33,350 nt of DNA from Candidatus Buchananbacteria bacterium RIFCSPLOWO2_01_FULL_39_33 (GTDB taxonomy: Bacteria > Patescibacteriota > Patescibacteriia > 2-01-FULL-39-33): contig MHIM01000024.1 in assembly GCA_001817505.1 (NCBI GenBank), forward strand, positions 1-33,350, given 5' to 3'. Both the position numbers and the translations under genes were made by a program. How positions within the stretch are numbered: position 1 is the stretch's first letter; the number at the start of each line of letters is the position of its first letter. The notes under the pieces are model-generated. The model was given only the letters and a program-made list of their open reading frames with translations. It was not told where the DNA came from and did no database searches. Positions 1 to 33,350 of this stretch are shown here, piece by piece.

Positions 1-3000
1 AGCGCCGCCTTAGGCATCAACCAACAAATAACTTATCAAGGCAAGATAGCCAATTCTTCCGGCGTTTCGGTCTCCACTAATAATTATGGTTTCCAGTTCC
101 AACTCTATGACGAGGCCAGCGCCGGCACTCTGCTTTGGGAAGAAACTTGGACCGCCACTACCACCGCTGGAGCAGTTAGTATCGCCCGAGGCGTCTTCTC
201 AATTAACTTAGGCACTTCTACTTCGCTTTCCACTGTTGATTTCAATTCCAATTCTCTATTCCTGTCAGTTAAATTTGACGCTGATGGCGATGGCGGTTTT
301 GAAGAGACCTTCTCGCCCAGAAAAAGAATCACTTCCTCGCCTTACGCCTTCAATGCTGACACTGTTGATGGCTTGCACGCCACTACCACCGCTACTGCTG
401 GACAACTCTTGGCTTTGGATACTAATAAAGGCCTAAGTTTGAATGGCGTAACTACCACTGATTCTTTCTATGGTGGTGGCTACGCTTCTACTACTTTGGG
501 CTTCTTTACTCAAGGCAATCTCTGGGTGGGCGGTAATGCCACTTCCAGCCATTTAGCCGTTACTGAACTTTGTCTTGGCAATGATTGTGAGACCGCTTGG
601 CCAAGCAGTAGCAGTGGTTCTTCCGGCGCTTGGTACGCCTTTGACGCTACCGCTTTAAGTCCCACCTCCACCCGCGGCATCTTGGTTAACGCTGCTTCTT
701 CCACCATCACTAACTTAGTGGTTAACACCGCTACTACTTCTAATTGGTTAAACATTGGCACTTACGATGTCATCGCTAATCTGGGCGCTACCATGGGCGC
801 TGGGGATCTCTATGTCGGTCGAAACGCTACGACTTCTGGCAATTTGACAGTTAGCGGCACTACTAATTTAGCATCGGCTTCCACTACCGGAACTTTTTAT
901 GCTGGTGGTTATGCTTCTTCTACTTTGGGTCTGTTCACTCAAGGCAATGGCCATTATGGCAGTAATCTGACAATTGATGGCAACGCCACCACTTCCGGCT
1001 ACTTGGTTTTAGGCGCTGTCAATCCTAATATTAATTTAGCGGCTGGTTCCTTATGGGCCTCCTTTGCCACTACTTCTCAAGCCACTTCCACTTTTGGTTA
1101 TTTTGCCGATCACTTGAAAGTGGCTACTACCACTAAAGCGGATGGTAAAAAATTAATTGTCGGTGGCACAAGTTATTTTAGTAATACGATGTCAGTTGTA
1201 ACGGACAGTAGTGTCACAAATTCCTCTTTAATTATTAGGTCGGTTACAACATCTGGCACCAACCGTTTGCCTTTAAGGGTCCACGCCGTTGATGGGGTGG
1301 AAGAAGGCAATCCAACTCTAATCGGCTCGGAAGTCGCTTTGTTTCAAAGGAATTGGAGTAATGCTTTCGGAGCGAGTATTGCTATTGTCGGTGGCTCGGC
1401 TGGCAATTCTCAAGTTTTTCTTGGCGATAAAGATGATATTGATATCGGGCGCCTTCTTTATAGACACGCTACTAATTCTTTGGAATTGATAACCAATAAC
1501 ACTACCAATTTGACAATTTCCAGTAATGGTTTGGATATAGCCGCTAACGCCACTACTTCGGGTTGGCTCAATGTCGGCACGACTAATGTAGTTGGCTTGT
1601 TAGGTTCTAATATCGGAGCTGGGGATCTTTATGTTGGCAGGAATGCGACCACCTCTGGCAATCTGACGGTCTTGGGTTGGGCTTCGACTACTTTAGGTCT
1701 CTTTACTCAAGGCAATCTCTGGGTGGGTGGTAATGCTACTACTTCTCATTTAGCCGTTACCGAACTTTGTCTTAATAACGATTGTGAAACCGCTTGGCCG
1801 ACAGGCGGTAGTAGTTTGCAAAATTGGGTTGGCACATCTTGGGGAGTGGATTTAACTCCAACTTCCACTTCAGCCGGCATCTTCGTTAAGGCCAGTTCAA
1901 CTATTGAAAATAATTTTAGAGTTCAGGGTAATACCACCACCACCGGCAACTTCACCGTCGGCACGTCAACCTTGGTTATCCAACATGATTCTTCAGCGGC
2001 TGATAACGCCTTCATTGGTATTGGCACTGCCAATCCAACGCAGATGTTGCACTTATCGGCCTTTAGTGATGCTGTTATTCGCTTTGAAACTAAAGATGAT
2101 TTGACTAGTGATGGGCCGAATAATCCAGCCGCGGCCACTTCCAGCGCTTTAATTGGTACGGCGGCCTGGAGCGATGAAACTAATGTTTTTACTAGTAATA
2201 ACAGCAGAGCGAGTGTTGCTCTTCAAGGTATTGCTTCATGGAAATATTCTCACTATTTAACTGCTACTTCCACTGGTTTTTCTCTTCCCAGTACTGCTGT
2301 GGTTAAGGGCATCCAAGTTGAGGTGGAAAAAAGTGATAGTTCAGGAGTTGACTGTTATGATAACGCCGTTAAAATAATTAAGGACGGTGTTATTGGCAGT
2401 ACGGATAGATCAGATAGTAACCTATGGCCCGCCACTGCCTCTGAGGCCTATACCACTTATGGCGGTCCTAATGACCTCTGGGGCGAGGACTGGACTTATG
2501 ACGATATCAATGCGACTGACTTTGGTTTGGCGTTTTCAGCCAAGTGTTTTAATATCAGAATCGCCTACATTGATCATATCCGCTTTACGGTCTACTACAG
2601 CGAGGGGGTTGACTGGGCCGTGGGCAGTGACGTGAGTCAAAGTTCCGCGTTTAAGATTTCCGGTTCATCACAGCTGGGTTCCAACGATTATATCACTGTC
2701 AGCGCTACCGGCAATGTCGGCATTAGTACTTCCACTCCCTCTTTCTTGTTGCAGGCCGGCAGTATTGGCGCTGGCACCTACTTTAGCGTTGACAGTTCTG
2801 GTAACGCCACCACTTCCGGACGCTTAGTAGTCGGCACGACTGCCGCCTGGGGCGCGCCTACTTCTACTTTAACCGTTATCGGTTCCGGTATGTTCACCAA
2901 GGGCTTGATAGTTGGCGATAACGCCACTACTTCCGGCTATATGATTGTAGGCACTACTAATCCAACTTTTAATTTATCGGCTGGTGATATGTTAATGGGA

Positions 3001-4668
3001 GGCGATTTATATGTTCAAGGCAATGATATAAATATGGGGCCATCAGTAGCTGTAAAAATTGACACTACCATATCAAAAGGCTTCTCTGGAGTTGGCTCTG
3101 GCAGCTCTGGCGGTCTAGGAGGAGATGTGAGTATTGGCGATGGTGGTGTGGCGGGTACTGGCATCGGTGATAATGATGGTGGCGCCGGTGGCACGATTAC
3201 TCTAGCTAGTGGCAGTGATTCAGATGCTTCCCAAGCTGGTGAAACTGGCGGAATTGGCGGCACGATTACCATGGTGTCTGGCGGTCAGAGTTTTTCCGGC
3301 TATGCCAACGACGGCACGGTTAATATCGGCAATTCAGCCGGTCAAAAAAACGCCTCGTTCTATGTCTATGGCAATGCTACCACTTCCGGTTATTTAGTTA
3401 TCGGTACCACCAATCCAGCTGGCTTTAATGCCAGCGCCGGTGATTTGTATCTGGGTGGCAACGCTACTACTTCCGGCCGGCTGACGACCGTTCAGACCTA
3501 TAATGAAACCACTGCCGATGCCGCTAATGTCTATATTGATTCCACCGGTAAATTATTCCGTTCCACTTCTTCCAAAAGATATAAATATAATATCAATTAT
3601 AACGGCATTGACGGCAGTTTGCTTTATAAATTAAAGCCAGCTTCTTATACCGACCATGCCGGCCAAGAATTCATCGGCTTTGTGGCGGAAGATGTGGCCG
3701 AAGTTGAACCACGGCTGGTTTTATTTGACCAACAGGGTCAACCAGACGCTTTACATTATGGCAATTTTGCCGCTCTCTTAACCAAGGCCATCCAAGATCA
3801 GCAATTAGAAATAGCCGATTTGCAAGCCAAAATTAATTCTACCGCTTCTTCAACTCCCAGCCAAACATTTATTCAGGTGGTTGATAATTACACTTCGGAT
3901 GTTGAAACACTGGCTGTTAGGCAGGTTGCTAATTTTTATGGCACAATCATGGTTGTCGGCGAAGCCGGCTTTATCAGTAAAGTGACTTTTGCCAGTGATA
4001 TTGAAGTCAAGGGCAAGATTTATGCCTCTAAAGACCAGGCCGGTGGCGTTGTTATTCCGGCTTTTGCCACCAGCACTGAAGTAATTTTTGAGAATGAGTA
4101 TTGGTCGGTTCCTCGGCTTGTGGCTACGGCTCAAGATAATTTAGAGAGCAAGAATTTTTGGATATCCGATAAGACCGCCAAGGGTTTTCGGCTCAATATG
4201 AGCCCGATGATGAATAAAGATATTAAGTTTGATTGGATCGCTTTGGCGGTTAAAGGTGAAAATGAGGCCGAGGGCTTACTGCCACAGGTGGCGGGTGAGA
4301 GTGTTACTGTCGGCTGCACTGATTCTTTAGCTATTAATTATAATCCGCTGGCGACAGCCGATGACGGCTCTTGCCAATATCCGCTAGCCGAACCAATGGT
4401 CGTTTCTTCTACTCTTGAAATTATTATCAGTGGTTGCACCGATCCAACGGCCAGTAATTATAATTTATCAGCCACAGCCGATGACGGCTCTTGCCAATAT
4501 CCGTTAGCCGAATTAATCGTTGTTCCTTCCACTCTTGAAATTATTGAGCCCCGGCCAGAAATAATTCCTGTCATAGATTCTGTCCCTGACTCTGAACCGG
4601 TTGTAGCCCCGATGACCGAACCTGTGTCTGAACCTGTTCCGGTGGTTGAAGAACCTGTAGCTATTTAA
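1..4668 (+). CDS. Giant repetitive surface protein with S74 (tail-fibre chaperone) domain, 5' end missing
   Basis: The reading frame is open from base 1, so the start lies outside the window; 1555 codons are visible, ending in TAA. The protein is rich in Thr, Ser, Gly and Asn, with about ten copies of an NATTSG-type motif followed by a short beta-like stretch (for example LVIGTTNP), as in phage-tail-fibre-like stalks. A 40-residue block at 484-603 recurs at 1681-1800. A non-repetitive beta-rich section covers about 2086-2700, and a Gly-rich section about 3080-3330. Around 3559-3830 is a Peptidase_S74 type intramolecular chaperone domain: SSKRYK (Ser and Lys five residues apart, as in the autocleavage dyad), GFVAEDV, then a coiled-coil-like tail. 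About 280 further residues follow, with two tandem 40-residue GCTD...DDGSC units (4312-4551) and a Pro/Glu/Val-rich C-terminus. The function is unknown; cell-surface attachment or adhesion is an inference. Secretion signals cannot be judged without the N-terminus. Confidence 0.9.
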   Translation, partial: SAALGINQQITYQGKIANSSGVSVSTNNYGFQFQLYDEASAGTLLWEETWTATTTAGAVSIARGVFSINLGTSTSLSTVDFNSNSLFLSVKFDADGDGGFEETFSPRKRITSSPYAFNADTVDGLHATTTATAGQLLALDTNKGLSLNGVTTTDSFYGGGYASTTLGFFTQGNLWVGGNATSSHLAVTELCLGNDCETAWPSSSSGSSGAWYAFDATALSPTSTRGILVNAASSTITNLVVNTATTSNWLNIGTYDVIANLGATMGAGDLYVGRNATTSGNLTVSGTTNLASASTTGTFYAGGYASSTLGLFTQGNGHYGSNLTIDGNATTSGYLVLGAVNPNINLAAGSLWASFATTSQATSTFGYFADHLKVATTTKADGKKLIVGGTSYFSNTMSVVTDSSVTNSSLIIRSVTTSGTNRLPLRVHAVDGVEEGNPTLIGSEVALFQRNWSNAFGASIAIVGGSAGNSQVFLGDKDDIDIGRLLYRHATNSLELITNNTTNLTISSNGLDIAANATTSGWLNVGTTNVVGLLGSNIGAGDLYVGRNATTSGNLTVLGWASTTLGLFTQGNLWVGGNATTSHLAVTELCLNNDCETAWPTGGSSLQNWVGTSWGVDLTPTSTSAGIFVKASSTIENNFRVQGNTTTTGNFTVGTSTLVIQHDSSAADNAFIGIGTANPTQMLHLSAFSDAVIRFETKDDLTSDGPNNPAAATSSALIGTAAWSDETNVFTSNNSRASVALQGIASWKYSHYLTATSTGFSLPSTAVVKGIQVEVEKSDSSGVDCYDNAVKIIKDGVIGSTDRSDSNLWPATASEAYTTYGGPNDLWGEDWTYDDINATDFGLAFSAKCFNIRIAYIDHIRFTVYYSEGVDWAVGSDVSQSSAFKISGSSQLGSNDYITVSATGNVGISTSTPSFLLQAGSIGAGTYFSVDSSGNATTSGRLVVGTTAAWGAPTSTLTVIGSGMFTKGLIVGDNATTSGYMIVGTTNPTFNLSAGDMLMGGDLYVQGNDINMGPSVAVKIDTTISKGFSGVGSGSSGGLGGDVSIGDGGVAGTGIGDNDGGAGGTITLASGSDSDASQAGETGGIGGTITMVSGGQSFSGYANDGTVNIGNSAGQKNASFYVYGNATTSGYLVIGTTNPAGFNASAGDLYLGGNATTSGRLTTVQTYNETTADAANVYIDSTGKLFRSTSSKRYKYNINYNGIDGSLLYKLKPASYTDHAGQEFIGFVAEDVAEVEPRLVLFDQQGQPDALHYGNFAALLTKAIQDQQLEIADLQAKINSTASSTPSQTFIQVVDNYTSDVETLAVRQVANFYGTIMVVGEAGFISKVTFASDIEVKGKIYASKDQAGGVVIPAFATSTEVIFENEYWSVPRLVATAQDNLESKNFWISDKTAKGFRLNMSPMMNKDIKFDWIALAVKGENEAEGLLPQVAGESVTVGCTDSLAINYNPLATADDGSCQYPLAEPMVVSSTLEIIISGCTDPTASNYNLSATADDGSCQYPLAELIVVPSTLEIIEPRPEIIPVIDSVPDSEPVVAPMTEPVSEPVPVVEEPVAI
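484..603 (+). repeat. 120-bp intragenic repeat, copy 1
   Basis: Encodes a 40-residue block (ASTTLGFFTQGNLWVGG ... LGNDCETAWP) that recurs at 1681-1800 in the same frame with only a few substitutions. It contains two Cys residues, rare in this protein. It is an internal module duplication of the surface protein. Confidence 0.9.
1681..1800 (+). repeat. 120-bp intragenic repeat, copy 2
   Basis: Second copy of the 40-residue block at 484-603, with exactly the same length and no gap. Most DNA differences are third-codon changes, so the copies have diverged under protein-level constraint. Confidence 0.9.
4312..4551 (+). repeat. Two tandem 120-bp units encoding GCTD...DDGSC modules
   Basis: Units 4312-4431 and 4432-4551 each encode 40 residues. 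Both begin GCTD, contain NYN and ATADDGSCQYPLAE, and end STLEII. Short GCxD-NYNP-DDGSC modules recur in surface proteins of Bacteroidota and Patescibacteria. The Asp residues and paired Cys suggest metal binding or a disulfide, which is an inference. The stretch encoding the Asp-rich core is almost identical at DNA level, so the duplication is fairly recent or is being homogenised. Confidence 0.9.
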
Positions 4669-21426: not shown

Positions 21427-24400
21427 TTATGGCAGATCCTGGCTAGCGGCTAGACCGGCTACTTCAGCAGCGGAAAGAGTCCGATTATAAAGGCGGACAT
21501 CGTCAAGACTGCCGTTAAAAGTATCACTTGGGTTTTTAGCGGCGTTCTTGGTGCCGATATAAAGCGGGTCACTAGTAATAGCAATGTTGCCGGTACCGTA
21601 GCTATTTTTTTTCTCCTGGCCGTCAAGGTAAATTCTTAGCCGTTTTTCGGTGGCGCTGTAAGTGGCGGCAATATGGTGCCACTTGCCATCTACTGGCGGC
21701 AGCGGTATTGAGACCGAAGAGTTGACGCCAGATAATTGGAAAATAAGATCTTTACCTTTGTTGGAGTAGAGGCGGTATTGGGTATCGGCTTTGCCGGTGG
21801 TGCCTTTTTCCATCAGGCGCGGATTGCCGCTCCAGCTGGTGGGCTTAACCCAAAGCGCGATTGAAAGCGAACTAGTGGCGTTAAGCGTAGGGTGATTGGG
21901 CACTAAAACATAGGAGCCGGCTGAGCTGGTAAAAGCGTAAGCTCCACCCAGCTGACCGCTGGTAAGATTAACGGCCTGGCCGGTTGCTAAATGGTTATAA
22001 ACTGAAGAGTCAATAACACCTCCGGCTGGGTCGTCATCAAATTTAAGATGAAGCACGGCCGGGGCGGCGGTTGATGATGGTGGTATTTCAATTTCAGTTA
22101 CGCCTATGGTGGTGGTAGCCATAGCAGTTGCTCCCCGATTGTCGGTAACGGTGAGAGCGGCTAGATAAGTGCCGAAGTTATTATAGGTATGGGTTGTAAC
22201 CTGGCCGCTGCCGGTCTGGCCATCGCCATAATCCCAATTATAAGCTGAAATCGTACCATCAGAATCGGTTGAAAGCGAACCGTCAAATTTGACTGTCAGT
22301 GGCGCTGGACCAGCGGCAGTTGAAAGATTTATTTGGGCAACGGGCGGCAGATTGATATCAAGCTCAAAAGCGCCAGCGTCAAGGCCTGTGCTATAAGGGC
22401 GAGTTAGACGATTAAAGTCAAAAGCCAATAAATCCAAGAAATCACTGCTTTTATCAAGATTGATGGCTGGGCTGTTAGAGTCCAGAATACGCAGATTGGC
22501 AATATAGCCAGACACTTCAATTAATCCCTCGGCTACTGATGCCGGGTAGCCTCCAGTCGTGCTATGAGTGTAAGTTGAGCTTTTAACCAATTTCGGATCG
22601 GCTGTCAAACTGCCGGTTTCGCCGGATTTAGTTTGCCAGTCGGTTAAATTATAAGAATTAGAATCGCTTTGGAAGAGCGCTGATTCATTACCGGGGACAT
22701 AATAAATATTATTGCCAAAGGATATAGCTGATAATAACCCGTCATTTTCTAAATAAGCCACTTTAAGTTTACCGGCGTTAGTACTGGTATCTAAAACTAT
22801 GATATTATCCTTAAAAACCAGATCCTGATGGACGCAGCCAAAATTAACATTATTCCACTGGGGGCAAGCCGAGCCGTCAAAATAAAATCGCTGCCAATTA
22901 TCTCCGGGCGAATTGATATTTAGCAGCGCATTAATTCCTCCGGCAGCTGATTTGGTTAAAAAGGTGTTGCCGATTATTTTCAAATGGCGAATCGGCCGCC
23001 ATTCCCAGCTGGCATCGCCGATTTCAAGGCGGCGGGAAGTATAATTAGTGGGAGAAATAAAAAGGTTATTCCTGACAGTGACATTATCGGTAGCCACGAT
23101 TTTAAGCCAGCGTTCAGCATTGGTAAAGACATTGTTTTCTAAGGTAATATATTCTGAACTCATCAGTTTAGGCGTGGTTTCCAGAGCTACTTGGCCGGTA
23201 CTTTTATCAATATTAGCCATCACATTGGAAGAAATTAAAGCTGAACTGTCAGCTGTTTTTAAGAATTCTCGGATATTCCTGCCACTGGGGACAGCCGTCG
23301 GACCTAAAACTAATTGGCCGGTAGTGGTTGGCGTAGCTCCGGTAGTATAGAGGGAGATTTTGGTTGTTAAATTAACCGTATCAATCGCTTCAATTTTAGC
23401 TATTAACTTTTTTCCCGCATAAGTTCCAGCGCCGTCTAAATTAGGAGCTAAGTTAACGTTAATAGGATCAAACCAACCGCTGCTATAGGGCGAATAATTA
23501 TAGTAAGAGTAGTGAGGGGGGCCATAAGCGCCATTAGGAGCGATTTCCACCAAACTGAAATTATAGCGAACACCAGAAGAACCAGCCGGGCAGTTGTGAG
23601 AACCGCCGGCTCGTCCCGAGCCGGCACTTATTGAACTTAGATTGTCTCTCCAACCCAGGAAACGATTACTAACAATTGCCACGTTATTGGTGAAGCGCTT
23701 GGTATCGCCGCCATCTAGGCGCAAAGCAGTTCGGCCGCAAGCTGGCCGGGAAAAAGTATTATTATAAATAAGCGCTTTGTTTAAATAAGGCAGATAGGCG
23801 TCATGATTGCCTGACTGGTCAAGAGTGGAATTGACGAGAGCCAGGCGATCGGCCAAAGCATAGAGCTGGATGCTGGTGAAAGGAGCGGTTGCTTGGCGGT
23901 TGGCAATAATTGAATCAAAAATGAATAAACCGTGCGGGTAAGGTGAAGGATATTGCGAATCCGGCACGCCATCGGCGCTAATGAAGGAATTGTAGGGGTC
24001 ATAACCCTCAACCCTTAAAAATAAAAAATTGCGATTGCCGCCAACCAAATGGATCAGCTGGCTGAAATATTGGGTGGTAGCTGTGCTTTTATTTGATAAG
24101 CCCTCAAAATTCAGGTCAACAAAACCGATGTGCCCGACTCTTCGGGTAAGGCCGTTTAGGTAAGTGAGATTACTGCTGGTTCCCATATATTGGATAATCG
24201 GTTTGGCGCCATCGCCGTAAGCGCTAAAAGAGTAAGAATGGCTGGCTACATTGCCTAAGGTAAAGCTTTTTTGCGCCTCAAATGTTTGGCTGCGCTTGAA
24301 GAGAATTCGGTCGCCGGGCTGGTATAATTTGGCGGCTACTCCGGCAAACGCTTTATCGGCTGTTTGCCAGGCTGTCTGGGGCGAGAGGCCGTCATTGGCA

Positions 24401-24954
24401 TCGTTACCAACCGCCGAGTCAATATAATAGGTTAAGTTGTCGGGCGCTAAGACGGTAATTTCAATTGAAGCCGTTGAAACCTGACCACTACGATTTTTAA
24501 CAGTCAGTTTGGCTGTGTAGGTACCGGGCTGTTCATAGATGTGGGCGCCATTAAAGGCGTGAAGTTCATTAGGATTGCCGTTATAAGCGTTATTATCGCC
24601 AAAGTCCCAAGCGTAATCAATAATCTCATTTCTAGGTAATGATTGCCAGCCCTCCAGGAAAACGGGAAATGGCGCGTAGCCGCGGGTGAGAGTGATGGGC
24701 TGGCCATCTTTGGATTTATGGTTGGCGTAGTTGGTTTGGTACCAAGCGTCTTGGGCGGTATTGGGGTCAGTGATAACTGCCTGTGGCGCAACCGTGGCGA
24801 TGGTTATAAGATTTTTATCAATACTATTATTGATAAAATAACCATAAACTAAAATTCCGCCTATTATTAAAACTGTGGTGATTGTTATCATCACCTTATT
24901 AAGGGTGGATATCTTGGTAAAATAATATTGTTTGGTTAGAATGATTTTTTTCAT
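21427..24954 (-). CDS. Membrane-anchored PKD / beta-helix / PKD / LamG surface protein
   Basis: 1175 residues. One membrane segment at 20-40 (signal anchor) puts the rest outside the cell. PKD domain 1 is at about 86-169 (YAWDFGD, HIYEQPGTYTAKLTV). A long right-handed parallel beta-helix-like region follows (about 176-860), opening YYIDSAVGNDANDGLSPQTA and showing repeated NN-F/NI patterns as in pectate-lyase-type or carbohydrate-active folds. PKD domain 2 is at about 872-960 (YNWDYGDGQTG, HTYNNFGTYLAALTV). A LamG/concanavalin-like domain ends the protein (about 965-1165: WVKPTSW, GKWHHIAATY, GSLDDVRLYNRTLS). It may bind or cleave polysaccharides or mediate contact with a host cell; no catalytic residues can be assigned by eye. 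ATG 24954; no clear Shine-Dalgarno site. Confidence 0.88.
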   Translation of the reverse strand: MKKIILTKQYYFTKISTLNKVMITITTVLIIGGILVYGYFINNSIDKNLITIATVAPQAVITDPNTAQDAWYQTNYANHKSKDGQPITLTRGYAPFPVFLEGWQSLPRNEIIDYAWDFGDNNAYNGNPNELHAFNGAHIYEQPGTYTAKLTVKNRSGQVSTASIEITVLAPDNLTYYIDSAVGNDANDGLSPQTAWQTADKAFAGVAAKLYQPGDRILFKRSQTFEAQKSFTLGNVASHSYSFSAYGDGAKPIIQYMGTSSNLTYLNGLTRRVGHIGFVDLNFEGLSNKSTATTQYFSQLIHLVGGNRNFLFLRVEGYDPYNSFISADGVPDSQYPSPYPHGLFIFDSIIANRQATAPFTSIQLYALADRLALVNSTLDQSGNHDAYLPYLNKALIYNNTFSRPACGRTALRLDGGDTKRFTNNVAIVSNRFLGWRDNLSSISAGSGRAGGSHNCPAGSSGVRYNFSLVEIAPNGAYGPPHYSYYNYSPYSSGWFDPINVNLAPNLDGAGTYAGKKLIAKIEAIDTVNLTTKISLYTTGATPTTTGQLVLGPTAVPSGRNIREFLKTADSSALISSNVMANIDKSTGQVALETTPKLMSSEYITLENNVFTNAERWLKIVATDNVTVRNNLFISPTNYTSRRLEIGDASWEWRPIRHLKIIGNTFLTKSAAGGINALLNINSPGDNWQRFYFDGSACPQWNNVNFGCVHQDLVFKDNIIVLDTSTNAGKLKVAYLENDGLLSAISFGNNIYYVPGNESALFQSDSNSYNLTDWQTKSGETGSLTADPKLVKSSTYTHSTTGGYPASVAEGLIEVSGYIANLRILDSNSPAINLDKSSDFLDLLAFDFNRLTRPYSTGLDAGAFELDINLPPVAQINLSTAAGPAPLTVKFDGSLSTDSDGTISAYNWDYGDGQTGSGQVTTHTYNNFGTYLAALTVTDNRGATAMATTTIGVTEIEIPPSSTAAPAVLHLKFDDDPAGGVIDSSVYNHLATGQAVNLTSGQLGGAYAFTSSAGSYVLVPNHPTLNATSSLSIALWVKPTSWSGNPRLMEKGTTGKADTQYRLYSNKGKDLIFQLSGVNSSVSIPLPPVDGKWHHIAATYSATEKRLRIYLDGQEKKNSYGTGNIAITSDPLYIGTKNAAKNPSDTFNGSLDDVRLYNRTLSAAEVAGLAASQDLP

Positions 24955-29099: not shown

Positions 29100-29816
29100 T
29101 TAATCAGCATTTATTTTTTCGGTAATCGCTATTAAATTCTTGCCTTTCAGCCGGGAAGTTGGTTGTCCCTGGTATTCATAAAATATTTCTTTTACTTTAA
29201 AGCCAACTACTTCCAGCAGTTTTTTTAATTCCTTTCGGCTAAAGGAGTGGACATATCTGAATTCTTTTTTTTGCCAAGGAATGAAAGCATCATTAAAAGA
29301 CCAGAGTTTATATTTAATAAGCTTTAACTTATAATTAAACAAATATCGGCGATAATCTTTTTGCCACAAATTCCAGACCGTGATTATTAACCGGCCATTA
29401 TTTTTTAAAGACCGATGGATATTTTTTAAGATTTTTAATCTAAGTTCGGTAGTAGGCAGATGATGTAAAACCGCTATTAGCAAGGCCAGATCAAAATTAT
29501 TTTCCGGCAATTGATAAGCCAGAATGTCTTGGACTTGAAAATTTAAGTTTTTTCTGTTAGAATAATTATTCTTGGCAATTTTTATCAGCTGATTAGAATT
29601 ATCCAGGCCTAAATAATTTTGGCTGTCTTCAACTAATTCCGACAGGCGTCCGCTACCGCAGCCCAAATCAACAACATTACTGGCCTTAATCACATAAGAT
29701 TTTAGCCAAGCCAAAACCGGCCAGGGCTTTTGGCGGGTCTGGTAAAAGTCGGGAGCGATTTTATTGTAAATATCCGAAGTGGATTTTAAAATTTCCTTTA
29801 CTGTTTTTTCTTCCAT
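29100..29816 (-). CDS. Trm9/ALKBH8-like SAM-dependent tRNA (wobble uridine) methyltransferase
   Basis: 238 residues from ATG 29816; the frame is open back to a TTG at 29843, but ATG is preferred. Class I methyltransferase: motif I VVDLGCGSGRLSEL, motif II LGLDNSNQLI, motif IV region DLALLIAVLHHL, then GRLIITVW. Beyond the generic fold it has features I know from Trm9 and the ALKBH8 methyltransferase domain: IYNKIAPDFYQTRQKPWP at the N-terminus, IAVLHHLPTTELR in the middle, and the C-terminal AFIPWQKKEF...YVHSFSRKEL followed by a GFKVKEIFYE strand. Those enzymes methylate cm5U34 to mcm5U34 in tRNA. The divergent neighbour is Elp3, which makes the cm5U precursor, so context supports the same role. 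A Trm112-type partner is not in the window. Family by recalled similarity, not by search. Confidence 0.72.
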   Translation of the reverse strand: MEEKTVKEILKSTSDIYNKIAPDFYQTRQKPWPVLAWLKSYVIKASNVVDLGCGSGRLSELVEDSQNYLGLDNSNQLIKIAKNNYSNRKNLNFQVQDILAYQLPENNFDLALLIAVLHHLPTTELRLKILKNIHRSLKNNGRLIITVWNLWQKDYRRYLFNYKLKLIKYKLWSFNDAFIPWQKKEFRYVHSFSRKELKKLLEVVGFKVKEIFYEYQGQPTSRLKGKNLIAITEKINAD

Positions 29817-29822
29817 ATATTT

Positions 29823-31397
29823 ATGACCAAAATTCAATTGCAAAAAATAATCAAAGCTTTAGTTCTTGCCCAGCCCAGTTCTTATAAAGAGCTGGCAGCT
29901 GTGGTTAGAGCTGAAGCCAGCCAGTTTAGCCAGCCATTGCCAGAAAAATCCCAATTGCTTTTAGCTTATCACAGTTTGCTTAAAAATAAAAAAATAAAAT
30001 CCAGCAGCGTTTTGGAAAAATTATTGACCAAAAGAGCGGTGCGGACTCTTTCGGGGGTGGCGGTGATTACGGTTTTAACCAAGCCCTACCCATGTCCGGG
30101 TGAATGCCTTTTTTGTCCGACCGAAGTTAAGATGCCCAAGAGCTATCTGGCCAATGAGCCGGCAGTGATGCGCGCCATTTTAAATGACTTTGATCCTTAC
30201 CGCCAGATTAAAATGCGACTAAGGGCCTTGAAGGCCAATGGTCATAAAACCGATAAAGTGGAATTAATTGTCATTGGCGGCACCTGGTCGGTCTTGGACC
30301 ATCAATATCAAAATTGGTATATCAAAAGATGCTTTGAGGCCTTAAACGGCCGGCCGTCAAAAACTTTATCAACCGCGCAAAAAATAAACGAGAATGCCAA
30401 GCATCGCTGCATCGGCTTGACTTTGGAAACCCGCCCTGATTATATAAGCGAAAAAGAATTGATTAGAATGAGGGAATTGGGCTGTACGCGGGTGGAATTG
30501 GGCGTCCAGCACATTGATAATAAGATACTGGCCTTCAATAAAAGAGGGCATAAGGTCGAACGAAGCATCAAGGCCTTAAGATTACTCAAAGAAGCTGGCT
30601 TTAAAGTTAATTTGCATCTGATGCTGGATCTGCCGACTGCCACTCCAGCCAAGGACTTGGCGATGTTTAAAAAAATTTATACCCACTCCGACTTTTGTCC
30701 GGATATGGTCAAGATTTATCCTTGTGTGGTCAATGAAAAGGCTGAACTTTATAATTTATGGAAAAAGGGAAAGTATAAGCCCTACAGCGCTAAACAGCTA
30801 CGTCGGCTGTTGGTTGATATTAAAAAAATCACTCCTGAATATGTGCGTATTACTCGTTTGGTTAGGGATATTCCTAAAGAAAGCATTTCCGCTGGCAATA
30901 AAATTACCAACCTGCGCCAACTGTTAGCCGACCAAGCCAAAGACGAGGGCTGGGTTTGTCGTTGCATCAGATGCCGCGAAGTTACCAGGCAAGAACAGGT
31001 TAAAGGAGTCAGCAATTTAAAATTAAACATCAGGACTTACCCAGCCAGCGGTGGCACTGAATATTTTTTAAGTTATGAGTCAGCCGATGAGAAAGCCCTT
31101 TACGCTTTCTTGCGCTTGAGGATAAATGATAAGATTAACAATAATTTTATTGCTGAACTAAAAGGCGCGGCGCTAATTAGAGAACTTCACACTTATGGCG
31201 AACTGACCGAAATTGGTGCCAAAGGCGATGTCCAGCATTTGGGTTTGGGCAAAAAATTATTGAAAGAAGCGGAAAATATTGTTAGCAGAAAAAAAATAAA
31301 AAAAATAGCGGTCATTGCTGGTGTGGGCGCAAGGAAATATTATGAGAAATTCGGTTATAAATTAGAGGGGACTTATATGGTTAAGGAGTTATCTTAA
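29823..31397 (+). CDS. elp3: Elp3-type tRNA uridine(34) carboxymethylase (radical SAM + GNAT)
   Basis: 524 residues, full length. The radical SAM cluster is C91-x3-C95-x2-C98 (PCPGECLFCPTE), followed by the Elp3 signature NEPAVMRAI and the IVIGGTWS, LTLETRPDYI and VELGVQH strands. A zinc-type RCIRCREV motif leads into the C-terminal acetyltransferase domain: ELHTYGELTEIG, acetyl-CoA loop QHLGLGKKLLKEAE, and VIAGVGARKYYEKFGYKLEG. Elp3 uses SAM radical chemistry and acetyl-CoA to make 5-carboxymethyluridine at tRNA position 34. In eukaryotes it needs other Elongator subunits; bacterial and archaeal Elp3 work alone. Its start lies 6 nt from the start of the Trm9-like gene on the other strand. 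Confidence 0.94.
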   Translation: MTKIQLQKIIKALVLAQPSSYKELAAVVRAEASQFSQPLPEKSQLLLAYHSLLKNKKIKSSSVLEKLLTKRAVRTLSGVAVITVLTKPYPCPGECLFCPTEVKMPKSYLANEPAVMRAILNDFDPYRQIKMRLRALKANGHKTDKVELIVIGGTWSVLDHQYQNWYIKRCFEALNGRPSKTLSTAQKINENAKHRCIGLTLETRPDYISEKELIRMRELGCTRVELGVQHIDNKILAFNKRGHKVERSIKALRLLKEAGFKVNLHLMLDLPTATPAKDLAMFKKIYTHSDFCPDMVKIYPCVVNEKAELYNLWKKGKYKPYSAKQLRRLLVDIKKITPEYVRITRLVRDIPKESISAGNKITNLRQLLADQAKDEGWVCRCIRCREVTRQEQVKGVSNLKLNIRTYPASGGTEYFLSYESADEKALYAFLRLRINDKINNNFIAELKGAALIRELHTYGELTEIGAKGDVQHLGLGKKLLKEAENIVSRKKIKKIAVIAGVGARKYYEKFGYKLEGTYMVKELS

Positions 31398-32951: not shown

Positions 32952-33350
32952 ATGAAAAAGACTACTTTCAACGCTACTTATGATATCCAATACCATTTTG
33001 TCTGGATTCCTAAATATCGCAAGAGAGTACTGGTTGGAAAAATCAAAGGTAGAATAAATAAGCTATTTCGAGACTGCGCAGATGTGAACCAATTTGAAAT
33101 CATTGAAATGTCAATCCAACCCGATCACGTTCATCTTTTGCTCTCTGCCAAACCCAGATATTCTCCTGCTGAAATCATGTGTTTAATCAAGGGTGGTAGT
33201 TCCAGAATAATTCGTCAAGAATTTCCAGAATTGGAAGAGTTTCTCTGGGGTGATAGTTTCTGGGCCGATGGCTATTTTGTTTCAACGCACAGTGTGGTCA
33301 ATGAAGAAATCATAATAAATTACATAAAACAACAGGACGAAGATCGCTAG
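32952..33350 (+). CDS. tnpA: IS200/IS605-family transposase TnpA (HUH, Y1)
   Basis: 132 residues, complete; the TAG stop is the last codon of the window. The HUH metal site is PDHVHLLLS, and the catalytic tyrosine is in NYIKQQ near the C-terminus. The N-terminus YDIQYHFVWIPKYRK and FLWGDSFWADGYFVST are family hallmarks. TnpA cuts and joins single-stranded DNA at hairpin ends (peel-and-paste), leaving no target duplication. No tnpB or iscB gene is visible, so it is the IS200 arrangement, but the right end lies outside the window. All catalytic residues are intact, so it may be active. Confidence 0.96.
   Translation: MKKTTFNATYDIQYHFVWIPKYRKRVLVGKIKGRINKLFRDCADVNQFEIIEMSIQPDHVHLLLSAKPRYSPAEIMCLIKGGSSRIIRQEFPELEEFLWGDSFWADGYFVSTHSVVNEEIIINYIKQQDEDR

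Follow-up and report, generated by a model that had tools for sequence, protein, structure and literature searches.

A divergent Elp3 and Trm9-like methyltransferase gene pair in Patescibacteria as a likely two-enzyme route to wobble-uridine modification

Elp3 and Trm9 belong to a pathway of wobble-uridine (U34) modification that has been described in eukaryotes and in part of the archaea. Elp3 alone suffices to make cm5U in archaea (PMC13315578), the Elp3 and Trm9 genes are clustered in Sulfolobus (PMC2584109), and mcm5U34 has been reported in Haloferax (as cited in PMC7663514); archaeal Trm9 is limited to Sulfolobales and Halobacteriales (PMC5372719). Residues R29, H115, R241, Y243 and N271 of yeast Trm9 are needed for tRNA binding and catalysis, and their mutation cripples the enzyme (PMC5372719). 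With regard to bacteria, relatives of the methyltransferases that depend on Trm112 had not been found according to a 2017 review (PMC5372719). A 2020 review was aware of bacterial Elp3 in Dehalococcoides alone and of no direct evidence for what it makes (PMC7663514); a 2026 paper places Elp3 in 'numerous bacteria' (PMC13315578). Nothing tying Elp3 or Trm9 to Patescibacteria was found in the open-access literature that we searched, subscription papers and preprints being outside the search. The chemistry discussed here is already known; what is new, as far as the literature searched goes, is its bacterial and apparently Trm112-free form as a near-fixed pair of genes.

We analysed a stretch of 33,350 nucleotides (the window) from a Patescibacteria genome of 0.97 Mb that is 97% complete. 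A preliminary description of this DNA, made without database searches, had proposed that a complete Elp3 lies next to a methyltransferase resembling Trm9/ALKBH8 more than a generic methyltransferase would, and that the two form a minimal version of the eukaryotic pathway. Both genes were confirmed at the coordinates it gave, in divergent orientation and with their starts 6 bp apart (Table 1). The N-terminus of the methyltransferase is MEEKTVKEILKSTSDIYNKIAPDFYQTRQKPWP, and the protein also contains IAVLHH and FIPWQKKEFRYVHSFSRKEL. The IAVLHH core and the C-terminal motif region which had been claimed are therefore present, and the claimed IAPDF-x-TR start held only in part, since two residues precede TR and not one. 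The same divergent pair was observed in two Candidatus Buchananbacteria, the nearest named relatives. Elsewhere in the window, an IS200-type Y1 transposase (PF01797, 4.4e-41) lies at the edge at 32952-33350 (+), a 1555-residue open frame with an open 5' end and no Pfam match at 1e-5 occupies 1-4668 (+), and 21427-24954 (-) encodes a protein of 1175 residues that carries PKD domains and, at its C-terminus, a laminin-G-like lectin domain.

Table 1. Features of the gene pair, codons equivalent to the key Trm9 residues, and asparagine-synthetase-like genes at other Elp3 loci (coordinates in the window, or in the locus named)
Feature	Position	Strand	Evidence
Trm9-like class I SAM methyltransferase, 238 aa	29100..29816	-	Pfam Methyltransf_11 8.4e-19; PDB best match 5cm2 Trm9; fold model pLDDT 94.2
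Gap of 6 bp separating the divergent start codons	29817..29822	.	sequence
Elp3, 524 aa, radical SAM + GNAT; proposed cm5U34 synthase	29823..31397	+	TIGR01211 2e-169, above cut-off
R28 codon (= Trm9 R29)	29733..29735	-	R in 41/41 family members
H118 codon (= Trm9 H115)	29463..29465	-	H in 38/41
R187 codon (= Trm9 R241)	29256..29258	-	R in 40/41
V189 codon (= Trm9 Y243)	29250..29252	-	Val in the window protein; Tyr in 26/41 members
N227 codon (= Trm9 N271)	29136..29138	-	N in 40/41
Stand-alone asparagine-synthetase-like (PP-loop) protein, L047	3210-4022	+	
Stand-alone asparagine-synthetase-like (PP-loop) protein, L036	16-864	-	
Stand-alone asparagine-synthetase-like (PP-loop) protein, L038	702-1481	+	
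Stand-alone asparagine-synthetase-like (PP-loop) protein, L080	4322-5110	+	
Stand-alone asparagine-synthetase-like (PP-loop) protein, L087	4039-4824	-	
Stand-alone asparagine-synthetase-like (PP-loop) protein, L046	3349-3780	+	

The window Elp3 scored 564.5 bits against TIGR01211, for which the curated cut-off is 350. Its radical-SAM cysteines are C91, C95 and C98 and its linker cysteines C379, C381 and C384; the GNAT domain is present, and a solved archaeal Elp3 could be aligned along its length. It is a complete, full-length radical SAM and GNAT protein, as had been claimed; that it forms cm5U34 is inferred. DmcElp3 of Dehalococcoides resembles it in being a bacterial stand-alone Elp3 with the same two domains, but lacks the N-terminal extension of the window protein (PMC6367351), and Dehalococcoides is not known to have either an enzyme for a second step or a derivative of cm5U (PMC7663514).

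In order to place the methyltransferase, we compared it with proteins of known structure. Among all PDB chains the best match to the single sequence was chain Z of 5cm2 (E 1.8e-19; next chain 1.1e-10), which is Yarrowia Trm9 in the Trm9-Trm112 complex and is ~35% identical to the window protein. A profile built from 30 family sequences gave 120 bits for 5cm2 and 90 for the next PDB chain. In the reciprocal direction, a search of the window's genome with Trm9 returned the methyltransferase gene at 2.6e-20 and the runner-up gene at 0.034. The AlphaFold2 model (pLDDT given in Table 1) also had 5cm2 as its top PDB fold match, with many class I methyltransferases also close. Against the family profile, a haloarchaeal Trm9-like reference scored 124.8 bits and yeast Trm9 118.1, whereas the other methyltransferases tested reached at most 91 bits, with E. 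coli UbiE, UbiG and BioC at 36-37 and E. coli CmoM at 22.8. The haloarchaeal reference lies on a Natronorubrum replicon and was the one Trm9-like reference that the plasmid search gave; no relative of the methyltransferase was found in phage records. By sequence, profile, predicted fold and reciprocal search, the methyltransferase is a relative of Trm9, which is its closest solved relative. The match is beyond chance, and the claim that the protein is more than a generic methyltransferase holds.

General family libraries and phylogeny were less decisive. Only broad methyltransferase families of Pfam pass for the window protein, and its NCBIfam matches to UbiG, UbiE and BioC fall below their curated cut-offs (UbiG 45.6 against 102.95 bits, UbiE 44.7 against 216, BioC 42.8 against 184.95). 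We also built a maximum-likelihood tree from 66 proteins. In it the two Trm9 references are each other's partners, and the sequences closest to them after that, measured by path, belong to the family. A branch that has every other methyltransferase on the same side was recovered in 56% of bootstrap trees. The deep branches are unresolved, and we dropped the tree as proof of Trm9 membership; an AU test with the family and Trm9 constrained together does not reject that grouping (p-AU 0.496), nor does it prove it. The preliminary description had stated that grouping with ubiquinone or small-molecule methyltransferases would refute its reading. On scores this refutation failed; the deep tree does not on its own place the family.

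We then considered the residues on which Trm9 function depends. All five published numbers fell on the right letters of the yeast sequence used for numbering; counts were taken over 41 Patescibacteria family proteins. The window methyltransferase retains four of the five, the fifth (Y243) being replaced by Val. R28, H118, R187 and N227 occur jointly in 36/41 family members and in 0/23 other methyltransferases. The protein also has in common with Trm9/ALKBH8 the N-terminal TR-x-KPWP and a C-terminal lid with R-Y-x-H, together with a gene linked to Elp3. It differs in being bacterial, in lacking the long insert of yeast Trm9 and, in comparison to ALKBH8, in having neither its AlkB nor its RRM part.

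Co-occurrence was assessed in 287 genomes drawn evenly across the phylum. Counting the family with the window query (E up to 2e-14), we found the methyltransferase in 76/287 genomes and Elp3 in 106/287, and all 76 had Elp3. The family profile added two diverged members, both adjoining Elp3, which brought the total to 78 genomes in 43 families, Elp3 being present in 78/78. A Fisher test on the 76/76 count gives p 4e-45; the sampled genomes share ancestry, for which this value is not corrected, and it overstates the evidence. The sounder figure is that one arrangement is kept in 38 families: in 70 of the 78 genomes no more than 3 kb separates the two genes, and they are divergent in all 70. The remaining eight comprise a divergent pair 3.5 kb apart, a tandem pair 5.2 kb apart and six pairs split between contigs. 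Loss of the neighbour relation in related genomes, which had also been named as a possible refutation, was thus not observed.

We asked whether this linkage could be leftover synteny. Among the 30 best Elp3 loci, 19 have the methyltransferase as a neighbour, four have glyA and one has the PGM gene. Since the glyA and PGM neighbours are not kept, gene order has otherwise been lost, and we rejected the idea that the adjacency is due to conserved gene order alone. In one genome, G174 (L056), Elp3 is followed by queH and a tRNA-guanine transglycosylase-like gene (3122-3679 (-) and 3672-4538 (-)), forming a small wobble-modification gene cluster. At the 13 loci with both starts callable (the window and L004, L005, L037, L040, L041, L044, L049, L052, L054 and L060-L062), the start-to-start gap of the divergent pair is 0-53 bp, which leaves no room for promoters and leaders other than within the coding sequence of the partner, unless there are none. 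Within the methyltransferase gene, at 29764-29792, a sigma-70-like match was seen for Elp3.

The pathways by which C5 of U34 is modified in other bacteria, MnmE/MnmG/MnmC and CmoA/CmoB/CmoM, have unrelated first-step enzymes, and these were not found in the window's genome. In that genome, family searches at the sensitivity used did not detect MnmE, MnmG, CmoB or Trm112; all genome-wide absences reported here rest on such searches. In the sample, MnmG is present in 6/287 genomes and MnmE is above cut-off in 5/287, none of them with Elp3; the 52 MnmE matches in all were mostly partial, GTPase-domain and below cut-off. A parallel operation of MnmE/MnmG with Elp3 was therefore rejected. No CmoB above cut-off was found in the 34 Elp3 genomes tested (the window's and 33 relatives). 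MnmA is present in 244/287 genomes, including that of the window, although most sampled Patescibacteria have neither Elp3 nor MnmE/MnmG.

Trm112 deserves separate mention, as yeast Trm9 needs it (PMC5372719) whereas none was found in the window's genome. A stand-alone ORF of Trm112 size was found in only 1/287 genomes (G148), which lacks Elp3. A fused or diverged Trm112 was considered and rejected, as nearly all PF03966 matches cover only a short part of a larger ORF that encodes another protein. It remains possible that a strongly diverged 40-residue domain escaped detection, and the genome is 97% complete. Since no Trm112 was found, we call the protein 'Trm9-like' and not a 'Trm9-Trm112 holoenzyme'. 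The survey of related genomes for both genes, Trm112, MnmE and MnmG, which the preliminary description had also proposed, supports its view of a minimal form of the pathway: MnmE/MnmG do not occur together with Elp3, and almost no genome has a stand-alone Trm112.

Based on these observations, we propose that the two genes encode a two-enzyme wobble-uridine pathway, a reading that we consider likely (probability about 0.8). Elp3 would use acetyl-CoA and radical SAM chemistry to form cm5U at tRNA position 34, and the Trm9-like enzyme would then methyl-esterify the cm5U carboxylate in a SAM-dependent step to give mcm5U34, acting without a separate Trm112. MnmA would probably then supply a 2-thio group, so that tRNAs of the Lys/Glu/Gln type carry mcm5s2U34. 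In these bacteria, which are without MnmE/MnmG, the pathway would take the place of that system. Our data show homology, residues, fold, linkage, co-occurrence and the absence of alternatives at the sensitivity used; substrate, product and independence from Trm112 are inferred, and no modified nucleoside has been measured in these organisms. The earlier Elp3 and Trm9 reading is hence supported up to the biochemical step, with formation of mcm5U still an inference, and the Val at the Y243 position of the window protein, the need of yeast Trm9 for Trm112 and the poor resolution of the tree are points against it. The closest parallel is the archaeal pair of Haloferax and Sulfolobus, where Elp3 also occurs without other Elongator subunits and together with a Trm9-type enzyme. 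However, Trm112 was found in the Haloferax and Sulfolobus control genomes and not in the window's genome, and the Patescibacteria form is bacterial and a near-fixed divergent pair.

Four other explanations were weighed. The methyltransferase could share the tRNAs of Elp3 and modify another group, either a different anticodon-loop base or ribose or another cm5U derivative. In favour of this, the linkage to Elp3 is very strong yet by itself names no atom, and Val replaces Trm9 Y243 in the window. On the other hand, the conserved residues are those which Trm9 uses for cm5U34 placement and tRNA binding, and the nearest relatives are Trm9 proteins; we consider this reading unlikely. A variant of the main reading is that mcm5U is made with the help of an unrecognised Trm112-like activator encoded elsewhere. 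The requirement of eukaryotic Trm9 for Trm112 (PMC5372719) speaks for it, as does the ease with which small zinc-knuckle proteins are missed, but the single Trm112-sized ORF in 287 genomes, in a genome without Elp3, makes this improbable too. A third possibility, that the protein belongs with generic small-molecule methyltransferases such as UbiE, UbiG and BioC and is next to Elp3 by chance, could draw on the Pfam and sub-threshold NCBIfam results. It is largely refuted by the family-profile scores (36-37 bits against 118-125 for Trm9), the invariable co-occurrence with Elp3 and 70 adjacent pairs, and the absence of the Trm9 residue set from the 23 other methyltransferases compared; we rejected it on scores and residues as very unlikely. 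Lastly, E. coli CmoM also forms an ester at a U34 carboxylate, but a functional analogue of it acting on cmo5U34 instead of cm5U34 is all but excluded by the low profile score of CmoM and by the lack of CmoB above cut-off in the 34 Elp3 genomes tested.

In the 28 Elp3 genomes without the methyltransferase, we looked at what else lies near Elp3. Six of them, from four families, have an asparagine-synthetase-like gene there (Table 1). The protein has 260-283 residues (the G058 copy is cut by a contig end) and contains the synthetase domain of asparagine synthetase without its glutaminase domain. The gene is divergent to Elp3 in four genomes (with an intervening ORF in G021) and tandem in G073 and G204. 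Neither the 78 methyltransferase genomes nor the 134 genomes without Elp3 that were tested yielded it; one further match, in G243, lies inside a 572-residue ORF, the size of an ordinary asparagine synthetase. Families f45 and f56 have the methyltransferase in some species and the asparagine-synthetase-like gene in others. Fold comparison of the predicted structure returned carbapenam, asparagine and beta-lactam synthetases, which use ATP to activate a carboxylate that then becomes an amide.

The enzyme that converts cm5U to ncm5U has been described as unknown (PMC3110198). By analogy, it would not be unreasonable to hypothesise that Patescibacteria have two interchangeable second steps behind Elp3, one forming an ester (mcm5U) and the other an amide (ncm5U), although we hold this bolder reading as readily wrong as right. 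The asparagine-synthetase-like enzyme would use ATP to activate the cm5U carboxylate and turn it into the amide of ncm5U. That the same carboxylate is esterified in one set of genomes and amidated in the other is the simplest reading, but it rests on six genomes and on chemistry by analogy. The remaining 22 Elp3 genomes have neither second-step gene, nine of them from family f30 (G018, G037, G055, G071, G113, G127, G160, G221 and G272); they may stop at cm5U or possess another second step. The amide-forming alternative is a more novel lead than the Elp3 and Trm9-like pair itself and, if true, would give the first candidate for an ncm5U-forming enzyme.

Taken at this strength, the finding places Elp3 in 106/287 genomes of one large bacterial phylum, 78 of them with a Trm9-like partner. 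A pathway of eukaryotes and some archaea would thereby extend to bacteria without the usual U34 system. A two-protein system that has neither Elongator nor Trm112 may be useful for mechanistic work, and the product of the asparagine-synthetase-like gene could be put to the test as the ncm5U enzyme that is still missing.
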